A stretch of DNA of 53,289 bases from a virus, in IMG/VR virus record IMGVR_UViG_3300020473_000040, positions 1 through 53,289 of that record; one strand, written 5' to 3'. A model generated the notes under the pieces. The model made no database searches. It worked only from the letters and a program-made list of their open reading frames with translations, and was not told the origin of the DNA. This document shows, piece by piece, positions 34,555 through 41,313 of this stretch (positions within the stretch are counted from its first letter, which is position 1; every line of letters begins with the position of its first letter). Both the position numbers and the translations under genes were made by a program.

Positions 34555-36492
34555 ATGAGTAAATCCTTTACGTTAAATCAGCTAACAGAAGGCATTCGCC
34601 AGCGTCACCTCGGTACGCAGAATAGGCGCCTTGTGGAGAAGTGGTCCCGCACCGGTCTCCTGAGAGGTCTTGACGGTCAAAACCGTGAGACAATGGCTAG
34701 CCTTCTTGAGAATCAGGCTGCACAGCTTCTTAGAGAGGCTAATTCAATCGGTACAGGCGCAGGAGCTGGAACAGCTTCAGGTGACCTTAACGGTTTCACA
34801 AACATTGCATTCCCAATCGTTCGTCGTGTTTTCGGCGGCCTTGTTGCGAATGAGCTAGTTTCAATCCAGCCCATGAGCCTTCCTTCCGGACTGCTCTTCT
34901 ATCTGGATTACACCTACGGAACACGCCGTGGTGGTGATGCTAACATCAAGACAGGCGCTGCTGGAGTAGCTGGTGCTGAGACCTATGATGTCGGTCAGTC
35001 CATCTACAACCTTCCTTCAGGAAAAGGTGTTCAGTCAGGATCAACCGCCACAGGTGGTCAATATGATCTAGTTGGATCAGGATATTCCAAGGTTCACACG
35101 TCTTCAGTTATGGATCTCACCTGGGTTGCTGCTTCAGGTGCTTATGGAAATAGCGCTTCTACAATTACTGCCAAGGTAAAGGCAGTTGCAACAGGTACAG
35201 ATGGTAAGCTTCTACAGTTCGATCCACAGCTCACCTCTCTAATTGAGGATGACCCTGGTCAAAGCGGACTTGGACGTTTCTCATTCCTCCTGCTCAATCT
35301 AAGCAAGTTCCCAGCTAGCATTGACCTAACACAGGCCAAGGAAGTTGGTATCTTCTCACAGACAACTGCTGGTTCTGCTACAGAGATGGCATTTGGAAAT
35401 GTTCCAGCCTCAATCCAGGGTGGCTCAAACATCAAGAACGTTCGTCGTCTAAACCAGATCGGTACCTGGGATTCATCAGCCGGAGCATTCACTAGTGATC
35501 CTTTCGCTACTAGAACTACCGCCAACGCTGTTCTCTTGACAGTTATGACGGGTTGTGATGAGTCTGATAGATTGGATAACAGCCAGCTGAATCTAACAGC
35601 TTCGTTCGTTATCTCACCAACACTGGGCGTTGATAGCTCTGACGGTTCAACTCTAACGATTCCATCGTTTGAGTCGGATTTCGGATCAGCTTCACCCTCA
35701 CCAATGATCCCCGAGATCGACATCAAGATCGAGTCAATTGCTGTTACAGCGGTAACCCGTAAGCTTCGTGCTCGCTGGTCACCAGAGCTCGCTCAGGACC
35801 TGAACGCCTACCACAGCCTTGACGCTGAGGTTGAGCTCACCCAGATCCTCTCCGAGCAGGTTGCACTCGAGATCGATAGAGAGATCTTGAATGATCTACT
35901 TACACAGGCACAGGGCGCTAACTACTACTGGTCACGTCTACCTGGTAAGTTTGTGAACAAGAAGTCGGGAGCAGCTGCTGACAAGGCAAGCTCACTTTCT
36001 TCCGGTCCTCAGTTCACTGGTACAGTCCGTGAGTGGTACGAGACCCTGGTTGAGACCATCATCGATGTTGCTAACGAGATCCACAGAAAGACACTTCGTG
36101 GTTCCGCCAACTTCATCGTGACCTCTCCAGAAGTTTCTACAATCTTCGAGGCATCAGTGCTCTACAAGCCAGCCCTCAAGATCGACGGCGACGGACAGGT
36201 CGGCGCTCCATTCTCACTGGGTGCAGCTTCAATCGGCTCTCTAAGCAACCGCTTCACAGTCTACAAGGACCCTTACTTCCCACGGAATAAGGTCCTCGTC
36301 GGATACAAGGGTGGAAGCTACCTAGAGACAGGTTACGTATACGCACCTTACGTTCCGCTGATCGTCACTCCTACTATCTTCCAGCCGGAAGACTTCACAC
36401 CCCGTAAGGGCGTGATGACCCGATACGGCAAGAAGATGGTTCGTGGTGACTTCTACGGTACAGTTACAGTTATGGATATGGACGTTATCTAA
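34555..36492 (+). CDS. Major capsid protein (gp23-like, HK97 fold)
   Basis: 645 residues, ATG 34555 after TTAGGAG. T4 gp23 hallmarks: the block FTNIAFPIVRRVFGGLVANELVSIQPM (~86-112) and IESIAVTAVTRKLRARWSPELAQDLNAYHSLDAE with LSEQVALEIDREIL (~390-445). The N-terminal propeptide probably ends at L59-R60-E61/A62, close to T4's cleavage after residue 65. It is ~125 residues longer than gp23 (521), with an extra segment around ~150-380. Codons are visibly richer in C/G at third positions than neighbours, as expected for the most highly expressed virion gene. A strong terminator follows. Confidence 0.95.
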   Translation: MSKSFTLNQLTEGIRQRHLGTQNRRLVEKWSRTGLLRGLDGQNRETMASLLENQAAQLLREANSIGTGAGAGTASGDLNGFTNIAFPIVRRVFGGLVANELVSIQPMSLPSGLLFYLDYTYGTRRGGDANIKTGAAGVAGAETYDVGQSIYNLPSGKGVQSGSTATGGQYDLVGSGYSKVHTSSVMDLTWVAASGAYGNSASTITAKVKAVATGTDGKLLQFDPQLTSLIEDDPGQSGLGRFSFLLLNLSKFPASIDLTQAKEVGIFSQTTAGSATEMAFGNVPASIQGGSNIKNVRRLNQIGTWDSSAGAFTSDPFATRTTANAVLLTVMTGCDESDRLDNSQLNLTASFVISPTLGVDSSDGSTLTIPSFESDFGSASPSPMIPEIDIKIESIAVTAVTRKLRARWSPELAQDLNAYHSLDAEVELTQILSEQVALEIDREILNDLLTQAQGANYYWSRLPGKFVNKKSGAAADKASSLSSGPQFTGTVREWYETLVETIIDVANEIHRKTLRGSANFIVTSPEVSTIFEASVLYKPALKIDGDGQVGAPFSLGAASIGSLSNRFTVYKDPYFPRNKVLVGYKGGSYLETGYVYAPYVPLIVTPTIFQPEDFTPRKGVMTRYGKKMVRGDFYGTVTVMDMDVI

Positions 36493-36513
36493 GATAGCAC
36501 CTAGTCTAAAGCT

Positions 36514-36544
36514 GAGGCGGCTCTTCGGAGCCGCCTCTTTTTAT
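36514..36544 (+). terminator. Rho-independent terminator after the major capsid gene
   Basis: Perfect 10-bp stem GAGGCGGCTC / GAGCCGCCTC (36514-36523 and 36528-36537) closed by a TTCG tetraloop, followed by TTTTTATTT. This ends the head operon just before the convergent oxygenase gene, whose stop lies at 36541-36543. The U-tract is good only on the + strand. Confidence 0.92.
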
Positions 36545-37113
36545 TTAAATGTGGGTCCGTGAACCCACCCCACCAGACAATATCTAAAGCCAGAAACAAC
36601 TTCACTCACTCTGTGAGAGATAAAAGAGGGAAACATCGTTGCCGACCCTTGAAGCCTAACTCCATGACCCTGGTCCATTGACTCAATTATAAGATTTCCT
36701 CCATCGTATAACTCAGGATCACTAAGCTGTATTATGAACGAAATTTTTCTACTTGCCGCTGTCGGTGTATTTCCAATGTCCATATGCCATCCAGAATAGT
36801 GGTCACCGGAAACATATTTCATTATTTGAATCTCCATTCTCTCTGTAATGTTAAAATTCCAGAATTGAGAATTTGCCTCTCTTATCGCATCTGACATGTC
36901 GGATAAATATTTTAAGATAAAGTCATGATTTTCCGACAAGCTGATGATAGAAGACCTTCGGATTTCCGAGTCAGTTACAATCTCACTGTCTCGACCGACC
37001 TTGGTCTGAATCCAGTCAGATGAATTCTCATAGAGAGATATAATCTCTTGACACTTTTCCTGGCTAAATAGTTTAAAATTAACAACGTCTGCAACATGAA
37101 GATTTTCTTTCAT
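36541..37113 (-). CDS. 2-oxoglutarate/Fe(II)-dependent oxygenase (prolyl-4-hydroxylase-like)
   Basis: 190 residues on the - strand, ATG at 37113 preceded by GAGGAAG. Metal ligands H110-x-D112 (GWHMDIG) and distal H167 (FISHRV), with R177 (GFRYCLVGW) placed to bind 2-oxoglutarate, give the complete HxD...H...R set of the double-stranded beta-helix family. Such phage enzymes hydroxylate proteins or small molecules; the substrate here is unknown. It is the only - strand gene in the window and is convergent with the capsid gene and divergent from the sulfotransferase, so it reads as an inserted cargo gene with its own promoter. Confidence 0.88.
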   Translation of the reverse strand: MKENLHVADVVNFKLFSQEKCQEIISLYENSSDWIQTKVGRDSEIVTDSEIRRSSIISLSENHDFILKYLSDMSDAIREANSQFWNFNITERMEIQIMKYVSGDHYSGWHMDIGNTPTAASRKISFIIQLSDPELYDGGNLIIESMDQGHGVRLQGSATMFPSFISHRVSEVVSGFRYCLVGWVHGPTFK

Positions 37114-37162
37114 TTTGTCTTCCTCGTTTACATTTTATCATATTTTTAATAATTTTTCATCA
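37114..37162. promoter_or_regulatory. Divergent AT-rich intergenic region between oxygenase and sulfotransferase
   Basis: This 49-base gap is nearly all A/T. On the - strand it holds a possible -35 TTGATG and -10 TATGAT (spacing ~15) ahead of the oxygenase. On the + strand only AT-rich, -10-like TAATAA precedes the sulfotransferase start. It is a plausible but weak bidirectional promoter. Confidence 0.3.
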
Positions 37163-38044
37163 ATGATTATTTCTCATGAGCATAAATTTGTCTTTTTTAA
37201 ACCTATGAAGGTTGCTGGCTCCAGTGTAGAAGTCGCCCTAAGCAAGCACTGTGGAGAAGATGATGTTCTAACTGGAACGAATCACTTTGATGAGCTGTCT
37301 TCTAGAGAGTATGACTATCCCAGTAGGAACAATATCTTCTCCCACAAGCTAAAGGGTGATGTTGCACTTTCCGCCATGATGCAGAGTGGAAATATTGATA
37401 AAGTGACACCTGAGATGATGGAGGCAGGCATCTTCGTTGATGTTCTAGAGCCTAGATTTCACATGCATGCCTTCCCTGATCAGGTCCTCACGCTGTATGA
37501 GAAAGACATATCTGACTATAGGATGATCACAATTGTTAGAAATCCGTGGGATATGCTTGTCTCCTTTTTCTGGTGGTCCTTCTATGCCTCTCCAGCTGGA
37601 TATGTTGACTCTAGAGGGCAGGTTCATAAAGATGGTAATTCTCTAGGGTTTAGTGTCTCAAGCCACCCAGAAGTTGCCCCAAGGGAGTCAGACAACGCCG
37701 AGACACTCATGAGAAAGATGGAAGTGTTCTGTCAGCTTTCTGGAGACTTTAAGGGCCCTGATGGTGTGGAGAGAAATCAAAATGTTCTTGACTGGCTAGT
37801 TCGAACCAGCGAGAGGTTCTATCAGATAGGCTATGATCACATCCTTCAATATGAAGCACTTCAAGACGACTATGATAAGTTATGCTTCTCCCTGGGCATA
37901 TCCCAAGAGATACTTCCAAGACTAAAGACAGGCCAGAGAAAGGCAAAGCTTCCGTATCACTGCTATTACAACGCATGGACCAGGAGTCGTATCGACTCTA
38001 AGTTTTCAATGTGGCTTGAAAAGTTTGAATATACTTTTGATTAA
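37163..38044 (+). CDS. Sulfotransferase-like protein
   Basis: About 293 residues from ATG 37163; the longer frame begins at a TTG (37115) with no ribosome site and an unlikely Phe/Asn-rich lead. The start MIISHEHKFVFFKPMKVAGSSVEVAL holds the 5'-phosphosulfate loop (K13-P-M-K-V-A-G-S-S21), and VRNPWDMLVSFFWW (R126...S134) is the 3'-phosphate-binding motif of PAPS-dependent sulfotransferases. It would transfer sulfate from PAPS to an unknown acceptor, possibly a surface glycan or virion protein. It lacks a signal peptide or membrane anchor, so it would act in the cytosol. Paired divergently with the oxygenase as a two-gene cargo module. Confidence 0.8.
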   Translation: MIISHEHKFVFFKPMKVAGSSVEVALSKHCGEDDVLTGTNHFDELSSREYDYPSRNNIFSHKLKGDVALSAMMQSGNIDKVTPEMMEAGIFVDVLEPRFHMHAFPDQVLTLYEKDISDYRMITIVRNPWDMLVSFFWWSFYASPAGYVDSRGQVHKDGNSLGFSVSSHPEVAPRESDNAETLMRKMEVFCQLSGDFKGPDGVERNQNVLDWLVRTSERFYQIGYDHILQYEALQDDYDKLCFSLGISQEILPRLKTGQRKAKLPYHCYYNAWTRSRIDSKFSMWLEKFEYTFD

Positions 38045-38062
38045 TTGGCTCCTTCTAGATAT

Positions 38063-38091
38063 TTATCACTAAGCCCGGTGCATGGTATAAG
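38063..38091 (+). promoter_or_regulatory. Candidate sigma70-type promoter for the decoration-protein gene
   Basis: TTATCA (38063-38068), 17-base spacer, then TATAAG (38086-38091) with an extended -10 TGG just before it (38083-38085). It lies 65 bases upstream of the start at 38156 and immediately after the sulfotransferase, and the gene is followed by its own terminator, so an independent transcript is likely. Confidence 0.5.
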
Positions 38092-38155
38092 GCGGAACCT
38101 ACACGCTAGCATCGGAAGCATGTACGGTAAACACTAACCTAAAAAAGGAGAAATT

Positions 38156-38671
38156 ATGCCAAGTATTAAAATTGATGGAACTAGAGGTCTAGTCCAGGAA
38201 GCTGGTAACACAATGCCTCTCACGCTAGATTCCAGCAACACAGTTGTCAAAGTTGCAGTTGTCAAGAACACATCTGCATTTGTTAGAAATTCAGACTCAA
38301 TCGTTGAGTGGGCGCAGCCTGCAAACACCTTTATTATGGGAATTGATCTGCTCAGCTTATCAGCACCATCCACAGGCACAGGTAACAGTCTGGGTTATGA
38401 AGTAGGAACATCAAGCTCAGGTGCACAGATCGTTGCTACTCATGCTGATGATATCATTGATGTGGGTGCTGATGGAACTGACCTTGCAAAGGGCGGTCTA
38501 GTTAGACTTACAATGGTTCGTGTCACAACAGACGACACAACACTAGCTGCAGACGCTTCATACACAGCTTCAGCAAGAACAGTTTATCTTAATACTACTT
38601 GTGATAATGCTGCTGCTGTGACATCAGCAGGCACAGTGGCTTGGATTATTAAGTACATTTGTTTCGAATAG
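38156..38671 (+). CDS. Putative capsid decoration/head surface protein
   Basis: 171 residues, ATG 38156 with an excellent AAAGGAG site. It is rich in Ala/Thr/Ser/Val/Gly, has few charged residues, and is probably all beta (repeated short strands such as TVVKVAVVKNTSAFVR and GLVRLTMVRVTTDD). It is the sole gene between a good promoter and a strong terminator, close to the major capsid gene, with a strong ribosome site. This setting suits an abundant outer head protein. No specific family such as Soc or Hoc is recognised, so the role is inference from composition and expression context. Confidence 0.6.
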   Translation: MPSIKIDGTRGLVQEAGNTMPLTLDSSNTVVKVAVVKNTSAFVRNSDSIVEWAQPANTFIMGIDLLSLSAPSTGTGNSLGYEVGTSSSGAQIVATHADDIIDVGADGTDLAKGGLVRLTMVRVTTDDTTLAADASYTASARTVYLNTTCDNAAAVTSAGTVAWIIKYICFE

Positions 38672-38691
38672 AGCATATCTTGCTAATCTAT

Positions 38692-38723
38692 AAAGACACC
38701 CTGCTACAGGGTGTCTTTTTTTA
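38692..38723 (+). terminator. Rho-independent terminator after the decoration-protein gene
   Basis: 12-bp perfect stem AAAGACACCCTG / CAGGGTGTCTTT with a CTA loop (38692-38718), running into a T-rich tract TTTTTTTATT. It isolates the decoration gene from the downstream FtsZ-like gene. Confidence 0.93.
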
Positions 38724-38739
38724 TTCTTGTATGGGGAAT

Positions 38740-38759
38740 AATTATCTATAGAGATAATT
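38740..38759 (+). promoter_or_regulatory. Inverted repeat abutting the FtsZ-like start codon
   Basis: AATTATCT (38740-38747) and AGATAATT (38752-38759) form an 8-bp inverted repeat with ATAG loop, ending one base before ATG 38761. No Shine-Dalgarno is present. It could be an operator, a -10-type element for a leaderless or short-leader transcript, or an RNA hairpin that limits translation. Confidence 0.4.
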
Positions 38760-38760
38760 T

Positions 38761-39990
38761 ATGGCGTCTAGTTTAAAAAATCTTAGAAAAGACCTAAGAG
38801 ACCCTAAGTCTAAAGGGCAAGAGGGGACAGATATCAATTCTAAGTTTTACGCCGATCAAGATATAATGGAAAATAACCTAGTGCTAGACGATAATAGCAA
38901 GCAAGAGAGCGATCCGTCCCCAATTAAAAGAGAGATTAAAAAAGATATGAATACTAATGATGATTTTGACTTTGTAGCAGATTATGATGACGCTGTCGAG
39001 GGAGAGAGTGGAACGCTTCTCCCTGAGAACACAGCGCCTTCTTCACTTTCAGTAGGCTTTATAGGTGTCGGTGGGGGCGGTGGAAAGATGGCCAAGGCTT
39101 TTATTGATATGGGATTTACTCAGACCCTGGTCGTGAACACTACAGATAAAGATCAACCTACAGGATTGGGAGAAGATCACTTTCTCTTGATCCCGGGCGC
39201 TGACGGCGTCGGAAAGAATGTTGAGCTAGGTCGACAGATCCTGTCTAACAATAGTGCCCTGGTTGAAGATCATCTTCGATCAAAGGTTGGTCGAGTAGAC
39301 TGGCTGTTTGTTCTCGCAGGTGGCGGCGGTGGCACAGGAAGCTCGTGTCATTCTCTAGATTCTGCTCTTCAGCGGTACCTTAAGTCTGTTTCTGCTTCTG
39401 GAAATGTTGTCTATGTCGTGACCGCACCAACAGCTCAGGAGCTCTTGAATCCCACTATTAAGAAGAACTATGAGGCACTGCTCTCGGATGTCTCTGGATC
39501 TGCCCATGTGGTTATAGACAATGAACGACAGCTGCAGCTTCTAAGAGGCAAGGTTGGAATGCTGGGACTTTATCCTACTGCCAATAAGAACTTTGCCAAG
39601 CTAATTGCACAGGTTCTAAAGCTGTCTTCAGAATCATCTCCAATTCAGACATTTGACTCAAAGGATCTTGAAGCATGCCTGTCGACAAGTGGGAGGCTTT
39701 TTCTTGGAACGACAGTCGTTAAAGATCCGAGTGATTCTAATTTAGGCTCCATGATTTATCAAAATTGCATGACTAAATCCCCCTGCCCCTCACCAAGCGG
39801 CAAAATAAAGACGGGTGTTCTTCTTCTCGTAGTTACAGAAGCGATGGCTTCAGACCCAGCCATTAGTACACAGCTCGAAGCGGCTATCTCTTATGTCGGA
39901 GGAAGAACAGATGCTCTGTTCTCTGGTGTCTATGTTAGAGAAGGGCTTCCCGGTCTTGTAGCTATTTCAGCTCTGGGCGGAATTGAGTAA
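38761..39990 (+). CDS. FtsZ/tubulin-superfamily GTPase
   Basis: 409 residues. After a ~95-residue acidic, probably disordered N-terminus comes a GTPase core: T1-like loop IGVGGGGGKMAKAF (101-114), NTTD near residue 126 (FtsZ 'NTD'), tubulin signature GGGGGTGSS (187-195), and VIDNERQL around N254 (FtsZ 'IPN..L'). The T7 synergy-like segment FDSKDLEACLS has D299 and D302 at the FtsZ NxDxxD aspartates. The fold ends with VTEAMASDPAISTQLEAAIS and closes at GLPGLVAISALGG without a long tail. A polymer-forming cytoskeletal GTPase is implied. It differs from phage PhuZ/TubZ by context: it lies between capsid and neck genes. No Shine-Dalgarno; an inverted repeat abuts the ATG. Confidence 0.85.
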   Translation: MASSLKNLRKDLRDPKSKGQEGTDINSKFYADQDIMENNLVLDDNSKQESDPSPIKREIKKDMNTNDDFDFVADYDDAVEGESGTLLPENTAPSSLSVGFIGVGGGGGKMAKAFIDMGFTQTLVVNTTDKDQPTGLGEDHFLLIPGADGVGKNVELGRQILSNNSALVEDHLRSKVGRVDWLFVLAGGGGGTGSSCHSLDSALQRYLKSVSASGNVVYVVTAPTAQELLNPTIKKNYEALLSDVSGSAHVVIDNERQLQLLRGKVGMLGLYPTANKNFAKLIAQVLKLSSESSPIQTFDSKDLEACLSTSGRLFLGTTVVKDPSDSNLGSMIYQNCMTKSPCPSPSGKIKTGVLLLVVTEAMASDPAISTQLEAAISYVGGRTDALFSGVYVREGLPGLVAISALGGIE

Positions 39991-39997
39991 AAAATAA

Positions 39998-40020
39998 GAA
40001 ATCTTTTAGAGATTTTTATT
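39998..40020 (+). terminator. Weak terminator after the FtsZ-like gene
   Basis: AAATCT / AGATTT stem (39999-40004, 40010-40015) with a 5-base loop and a T-rich tail. The stem is short and AT-rich, so termination would be partial. The rest of the 138-base gap to 40129 has no recognised gene or convincing promoter. Confidence 0.4.
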
Positions 40021-40128
40021 CAAATATGCTGAAGACCTCCTAGTAGGGTCCACGATCAGTATTTTCATTGTTGAATCTCCAGTTTGAGTCCATACTTATG
40101 GATAGTTATTGAATCAATTGGAGTGTCA

Positions 40129-41313
40129 ATGGCAACATTTGCAAATACAACGAATCCCACGCCCTTTGGGTTCTTTGACGCTGACACAGACTTTCAGGCG
40201 GAAGCTGATAATATCATCACTTTTGTCAAGAGAAAGATGGGTGATGACATCTTGTCTGTTGAGCTAACTAAGAAGCAGATTTGGGCTAACTTTGAAGAGT
40301 CTTGTCTGGAATATGGTTCGATATTAAACCAATATCAAGCAAAGTCTCAGTTGGTTCAATTCTTAGGAATGCCCACTACTGGGTCTGATGGTCACATGTC
40401 AGGATCAGAAGGAAAATACCCTAGAGAGAATCTTGAGTATCTAATTAGATTTGCTGAACCGTACGCCATGGAGGCTGGAGTCGGTGGATCATATGACATG
40501 ATATCTGGTTCAATTGAACTTGAGAACGGTCGTCAAGATTATGATATTTACTCTGAGCTTAAAAATGCAGCTGGAGATACAATATTCACTTCTGGTTCAA
40601 ATGCTCGACCTAAGACAAAGTTAAAGGTAAGTGAAGTGTTTCATTTTGGACCCGAAGCTGCCTATAGGTTCTTTGATACAACAAGTGCCATAAACTATCT
40701 TAATAACGAATTTTCATTTGAATCATTTACACCTGAGACTATATTCTATGTTCTTCCAGTCTTTGAAGATATCCTAAGAGCAGGGCAGCTAGATCTCTCC
40801 AATAGGGTCCGTAGGTCAAACTATTCCTACAAGCTCATTGGTAAAAACTTAAGAATATACCCGCAACCTACAAACATAGAGACAAAGAAGCTATATCTGA
40901 GAGTGATGTATCATCCAGATCCACTAAATCCATCTTACCATGATGAGACTATTGGGGGTGTTTCGAATCTCTCTAATATTCCATTTGGAAATTTAAACTA
41001 TAATAAGATTAACAGCATAGGTAGACAGTGGATACGACAATATGCTCTTGCCCTATCAAGAGAGCAGCTTGGGTTAATTAGGTCAAAGTTTGGAAACATT
41101 CCTGTCCCGGGTGCTGAAGTTTCTTTAAATGGTTCCGATTTAATAACCCAGGGAAGGGCAGATAGAGACGCCCTCGTTACTCAACTAAAGGAGATGCTAG
41201 ATACTTTGACATATGACAAGATTATGGAGACAGCTTCAAATAGAGCAGAATTTATACAGAAACAGCTCAGATTTTCACCCATGCCAAATGGGTGGTCAAT
41301 TTTTATGGGGTAA
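40129..41313 (+). CDS. Neck protein (gp13-like)
   Basis: 394 residues from ATG 40129 with GGAG at 40120; an upstream in-frame ATG at 40084 has no ribosome site. The N-terminus IITFVKRKMGDDILSVELTKKQIWANFEESCLEYGS parallels T4 gp13 ([29 protein letters not shown]), and the C-terminal WIRQYALALSREQLGLIRSKF...SLNGSDLITQGRADRDALVTQL parallels gp13's KDYATALAKELNGQ...[21 protein letters not shown]. gp13 binds below the portal and helps connect head to tail. At 394 residues it is longer than gp13 (309). Order gp13-gp14-gp15 downstream matches T4. Confidence 0.82.
   Translation: MATFANTTNPTPFGFFDADTDFQAEADNIITFVKRKMGDDILSVELTKKQIWANFEESCLEYGSILNQYQAKSQLVQFLGMPTTGSDGHMSGSEGKYPRENLEYLIRFAEPYAMEAGVGGSYDMISGSIELENGRQDYDIYSELKNAAGDTIFTSGSNARPKTKLKVSEVFHFGPEAAYRFFDTTSAINYLNNEFSFESFTPETIFYVLPVFEDILRAGQLDLSNRVRRSNYSYKLIGKNLRIYPQPTNIETKKLYLRVMYHPDPLNPSYHDETIGGVSNLSNIPFGNLNYNKINSIGRQWIRQYALALSREQLGLIRSKFGNIPVPGAEVSLNGSDLITQGRADRDALVTQLKEMLDTLTYDKIMETASNRAEFIQKQLRFSPMPNGWSIFMG

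Follow-up and report, generated by a model that had tools for sequence, protein, structure and literature searches.

A distinct FtsZ/tubulin-superfamily GTPase carried as mobile cargo by marine phages with a T4-type capsid

Among marine jumbo phages, Weinheimer and Aylward found tubulin to be unique to the phiKZ-like cluster (PMC9123017), and PhuZ, the tubulin of the Chimalliviridae, is missing from one third of that group (PMC10299810). Iyer et al. mentioned that jumbo phages have two distinct representatives of FtsZ/tubulin (PMC7824862). The family described here is called TUB. No published description of it was found in the literature searched, which covered few subscription papers.

The TUB protein studied here is encoded in a stretch of viral DNA of 53,289 nt (IMG/VR record IMGVR_UViG_3300020473_000040; hereafter, the window). 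Hundreds of contigs of phages with a gp23-type capsid encode members of this FtsZ-like family, which is unlike PhuZ, is very strongly selected and is preceded by a late-type promoter motif. If TUB polymerises, spatial organisation by a cytoskeleton would be a common trait of ocean phages beyond the nucleus-formers, with at least two origins.

A complete FtsZ/tubulin-type GTPase with an acidic N-terminal extension

The TUB gene (38761..39990, + strand) encodes 409 amino acids, laid out as an acidic, disordered N-terminal extension (residues 1-95) followed by a two-domain FtsZ-type core (residues 96-409). FtsZ is the closest curated profile, with TIGR00065 (ftsZ) matching 64/64 TUB relatives (best E 9e-13); Pfam Tubulin also matches 64/64 (best E 3e-9), and the window protein itself with E 2.6e-6, below the gathering score. 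FtsZ chains in the PDB were matched both by sequence (E 2e-7) and at the profile level (E 9e-9). In an AF2 model of the monomer, the core has a pLDDT above 90 nearly throughout, and a Foldseek search of the PDB with this model returned 974 matches at E<=0.001, headed by CetZ (3zid, E 8.5e-20), with TubZ (4ei7) second and FtsZ (2vxy) also among the best. The predicted fold is the two-domain fold of FtsZ and tubulin, with secondary structure elements in the FtsZ order, and the modelled chain of 409 residues stops at its final core strand (399-408). These searches place TUB inside the tubulin superfamily and uphold the claim, made in a sequence-only reading of this DNA, that an FtsZ/tubulin-like GTPase is encoded here.

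The full set of FtsZ-type motifs named in that reading was likewise found. It comprises the T1 phosphate loop GVGGGGGK (residues 102-109; 39064..39087, +), near-invariant in 64-65 relatives; NTT at residues 126-128; the T4 tubulin signature GGGGGTGSS (residues 187-195; 39319..39345, +), read from the sequence and the alignment of relatives; N254; and the D299 and D302 residues of the T7 catalytic loop QTFDSKDL (residues 296-303; 39646..39669, +). Across 65 distinct relatives, K109, N126-T128, G189-S194, E227, N254, E255, R262, F298, D299, K301 and D302 are invariant, and G187-G188 of the T4 box nearly so. The last glycine of the classic T4 box is S or A in the TUB family, the Asn of the FtsZ T7 loop is swapped for T, S or A at position 297, and the FtsZ T5 Arg appears unconserved by our reading of the alignment. 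In the predicted model, the T7 loop follows a long core helix (270-288) and D299/D302 start the next helix (300-308), which is the FtsZ topology. Judged by sequence, TUB thus has both the G-box/T1 motif and the T7 acidic residues of the superfamily, and, with the predicted fold, it is a complete FtsZ/tubulin-superfamily GTPase with an intact catalytic set.

The core is under extreme purifying selection, with a dN/dS of 0.007-0.017 in comparisons with its four nearest relatives and 0.09 with a further one (L014), dS being near saturation in some of these pairs. The N-terminal tail is looser (0.14-0.35), and over the whole gene TUB has a dN/dS of 0.04-0.12, as compared with 0.15-0.19 for the major capsid protein (MCP). 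The invariant catalytic residues and the core dN/dS exclude an inactive relic. A polymer interface on both faces of the protein would explain the constraint on the core.

The 95-residue acidic extension proposed earlier proved real: it has a net charge of -10, is predicted to be mostly disordered over residues 1-83, and begins with a conserved MAS start that is common to relatives of just 56-60% identity. An alternative start at M63 is less likely, because relatives without that Met still have the MAS start. Among relatives the extension varies from 31 to 171 residues, and its sole conserved stretch, DDFDFV...LLPEN (DDFDFV at residues 67-72), adjoins the core. In one relative (L082:6709-7836) the DFDF motif is doubled, as DDFDFA and DDFDFV.

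A variable slot, a late-type promoter motif and a patchy distribution

In the window, TUB lies in a slot (36493-40083) bordered on the left by the gp23 major capsid gene (34555..36492, +; Pfam Gp23, E 4e-75) and on the right by a head-tail adaptor Ad2/neck gene (40084..41313, +; phrog_211, E 8e-10), for which an ATG start at 40130, with GGAG ahead, is likelier than the TTG at 40084. A strong intrinsic terminator is predicted after the capsid gene (36514..36537, +), and directly behind it, on the opposite strand, stands a 2OG-Fe(II) oxygenase gene (36541..37113, -) identified by profile searches. It is followed by a sulfotransferase-like gene (37115..38044, +; phrog_3347, E 7e-8), which many relatives, TUB-bearing and TUB-less alike, also have in the slot, and by a 171-aa ORF with no family match above the cut-off (38156..38671, +). 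These cargo genes are parted from TUB by a further intrinsic terminator (38692..38718, +; 12-bp stem, 3-nt loop, T run), also seen in close relatives; an upstream terminator occurs at 28/80 TUB loci, where 2.2 would be expected. The neck gene previously placed downstream of TUB is confirmed as Ad2, but no capsid decoration gene is recognisable upstream, where the neighbours are the oxygenase, the sulfotransferase-like gene and the 171-aa ORF.

The order MCP, 0-5 accessory genes, TUB and Ad2 characterises lineage A, which comprises 38 loci with the window among them. In 12 TUB-less relatives with conserved Ad2 and an MCP 65-73% identical (L177-L187, L189), the same interval holds 2-18 other, unrelated ORFs, and in Flavobacterium phage immuto (L204) PhoH and others come after the capsid gene. 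One record (G050) has other genes in the slot and TUB about 65 kb away, and many gp23 phages have TUB at another place, with tens of kb between it and the capsid gene. Outside lineage A, TUB was found near PhoH and chaperonin-like genes (context B), near PhoH, exonuclease and glycosyltransferases (context C), or near GroEL, sigma factor and peptide deformylase (context D); in contexts B and C a PhoH-like gene stands a few genes downstream of TUB (L057, L077 and relatives). No gene family within three genes of TUB is common to all contexts.

The TUB tree requires several context switches, and a test of the slot members as a single clade on a quick tree rejects it (AU p 5.6e-40). The references used for rooting, FtsZ of E. 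coli and gp138 of Bacillus phage G, are too distant to root the tree firmly. TUB is mobile cargo, and the MCP-Ad2 interval is a hypervariable slot for cargo genes, because TUB-less relatives fill the slot otherwise, TUB sits elsewhere in other phages, and its tree switches context. As in phage cargo genes (morons), TUB has its own terminator and promoter motif and a patchy presence at a variable slot.

The sequence ATAATTA (38738..38744, +), which fits ATANTTA, a putative late promoter motif, stands 17 nt ahead of the TUB ATG, between the start codon and the strong terminator at 38692-38718. Within 90 nt upstream, this motif precedes 20/20 scaffold-like genes (2.5 expected by shuffling), 23/29 Ad2 genes (3.3 expected), 35/46 fibre-type genes (6.0 expected) and 41/64 TUB genes. 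It is absent before most other genes, including GroEL (0/8), sigma factor (0/8) and deformylase (0/9), and control stretches of the same TUB loci contain it in 3/61 and 0/61 cases. By context, it precedes TUB in 19/24 loci of A, 9/13 of B and 11/11 of D; the exact motif occurs in 0/8 loci of context C and in none of five odd contexts. ATANTTA was first noticed in the sets of sequences upstream of Ad2, fibre and TUB genes, and more independent support comes from the count for scaffold genes and from the position controls; the motif is termed late solely from the genes behind it.

Late expression of TUB is supported, by analogy with T4-type late promoters, because TUB carries the motif of virion genes also where it sits outside the slot. 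The suggestion that TUB is expressed with virion genes is accordingly supported by the motif, not by the location. Across the window, + strand sites (33080, 38738, 40092, 40102, 43226, 46462 and 49943) stand before operon-leading virion genes, with Ad2's own motifs (ATACTTA/ATAGTTA) at 40092 and 40102, and the motif is a possible predictor of late genes in this phage group.

TUB relatives are encoded on at least 324 IMG/VR stretches, on contigs of up to 293 kb. All of the records tested (30/30) have one copy, and in 15 of those 30 a gp23 capsid gene is on the same contig. Two tandem gp23 major capsid genes were seen within one phage record in two cases (G001, with L196 and L201, and G005). The window TUB has no match among 50,697 phage records, nor did megablast of the TUB region against phage records give any, and a diverged member (L066) matches only gp138 of Bacillus phage G among phage records (tblastn, 25.7% identity, E 4e-5). 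Plasmid relatives were not found beyond marginal matches (E 0.6).

In bacterial genomes, TUB is carried by only two contigs, both from one Flavobacteriales MAG; they look like co-binned phage contigs rather than cellular carriers, because on one (L086) a gp23 capsid gene adjoins TUB. Judged by the capsid, the nearest cultured relatives are phages of Flavobacterium and Rhodothermus, which makes a Bacteroidota host plausible. Among 50 records with a closely related MCP, many of them fragments, 4 carry TUB and it was not found in 46; a 257-kb record with a close MCP has no TUB. A universal core gene of the clade is thus unsupported, and TUB is an accessory gene with a mobile, patchy, single-copy distribution.

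Candidate roles in the infected cell

We give a probability of roughly 0.5 to the reading that TUB is a mobile, accessory, late-expressed protein whose filaments, driven by GTP, organise particles or DNA inside the infected cell. Under such a model, TUB would bind and hydrolyse GTP in large marine phages with a T4-type capsid, and its subunits would join head to tail, each supplying the T7 aspartates that complete its neighbour's GTPase site. A dynamic filament would then arise in the late phase, and the DDFDFV motif might tether it to a partner, such as the capsid, a DNA-bound protein, the membrane or a host protein. The filament may position DNA or particles, or may keep the cell undivided and roomy during particle maturation. 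TUB would improve fitness as an accessory gene instead of being an essential virion part, its place beside the capsid gene would reflect a cargo slot and give no clue to function, and PhuZ, a very distant phage tubulin, serves as its functional model, not as its family.

The main rival, which we hold to be unlikely, is that TUB antagonises host division: it would co-assemble with, cap or titrate host FtsZ or its regulators, and the infected cell would stop dividing. FtsZ is the curated profile nearest to TUB (TIGR00065, 64/64), the patchy accessory distribution of TUB resembles that of host-takeover genes, and mixed filaments would miss the tail-binding partners of FtsZ, as TUB is without the FtsZ C-terminal tail. 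Co-polymerisation is nevertheless doubtful, as TUB and E. coli FtsZ share only about 24% identity, and that within part of the GTPase domain, and a poison would not need the T7 hydrolysis residues, which are invariant. Known phage division inhibitors are, moreover, mostly small, early proteins, whereas TUB carries the promoter motif of virion genes.

The sequence-only reading took the head/neck location to suggest a dedicated role in morphogenesis; in such a role, TUB would act in capsid or neck assembly as a head-morphogenesis factor or virion protein. TUB does lie near gp23 and Ad2 in the 38 loci of lineage A, and has its promoter motif in common with Ad2 and the scaffold gene. This role is nonetheless improbable, and the location does not indicate it: 12 relatives that have kept MCP and Ad2 do not have TUB in this slot, tens of kb separate TUB and the capsid gene in other gp23 phages, and slot position forms no single clade on the TUB tree. 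Least probable of all is a TubZRC-like partition system that would maintain a non-integrated phage genome as its host cells divide, since, although TubZ ranks among the top matches by structure and some phages use TubZ, no TubR-like partner travels with TUB (no family within three genes is common to all contexts), the TUB promoter is late-type, and T4-type phages are generally lytic.

Extending the filament reading, we tentatively suggest, at somewhat below even odds, that T4-type marine phages outside the nucleus-formers have a late FtsZ-type filament whose docking tail is N-terminal and not C-terminal, which would organise assembly inside the host cell and would have evolved separately from PhuZ. 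Such filaments would make up a widespread but so far overlooked class of phage cytoskeleton.

Relation to described tubulin-superfamily proteins

The only match to TUB in an isolated phage, and a distant one, is gp138 of Bacillus phage G (NC_023719; annotated as putative FtsZ-like cell division protein). Like TUB, it has a DGxxGxGxN-type T3 stretch and the IDNE...GK and FDxxDLxxxL motifs, and its hhalign comparison with the TUB profile gave a probability of 97.3 (E 2.5e-11), as compared with 95.8 for E. coli FtsZ and 0.2 for PhuZ. Unlike TUB, gp138 has no DDFDFV extension, the core alignment starting at its residue 4; among 50,697 phage records it matches itself only.

PhuZ of the Chimalliviridae (phiKZ gp39) is, like TUB, an accessory, phage-encoded protein of the tubulin superfamily, but the hhalign probability of 0.2 amounts to no profile similarity, and membership of TUB in PhuZ was rejected. 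TUB, moreover, is without a C-terminal tail and accompanies a gp23 capsid; matches to phiKZ gp54 (chimallin) were found in 0/13 large TUB records, in a search run without a positive control. TubZ/RepX, of plasmids and a few phages, provides the second-best structural match (4ei7), but its sequence similarity to TUB is weak and mostly confined to the initial portion of that domain in which GTP is hydrolysed, the GTPase domain. TUB is also without a partner gene, and membership in TubZ (TubZRC) was rejected, no TubR adaptor-type family being common to all contexts. The archaeal CetZ is the best structural match (3zid), but it is a cellular protein with 18% identity to TUB. Two proteins of uncultured phages, known here by their database names only (A0A6J5RW92, FtsZ Cell division GTPase; A0A8S5UFG9, Cell division protein), have FtsZ-like predicted folds (E 4e-23 and 6e-17) and 16-18% identity to TUB.

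Bacterial FtsZ has in common with TUB the fold, the T1-T6 GTP site and the T7 acidic pair. TUB scores 36 bits against the FtsZ equivalog TIGR00065, however, far from the cut-off of 295.2, as compared with 362 bits for the true FtsZ of the Flavobacteriales MAG, and the T7 Asn of FtsZ is unconserved in TUB. Where FtsZ has a C-terminal linker and a conserved tail peptide, TUB lacks both and has a long acidic N-terminal extension instead. TUB is a distinct family, separate from FtsZ, TubZ and PhuZ.
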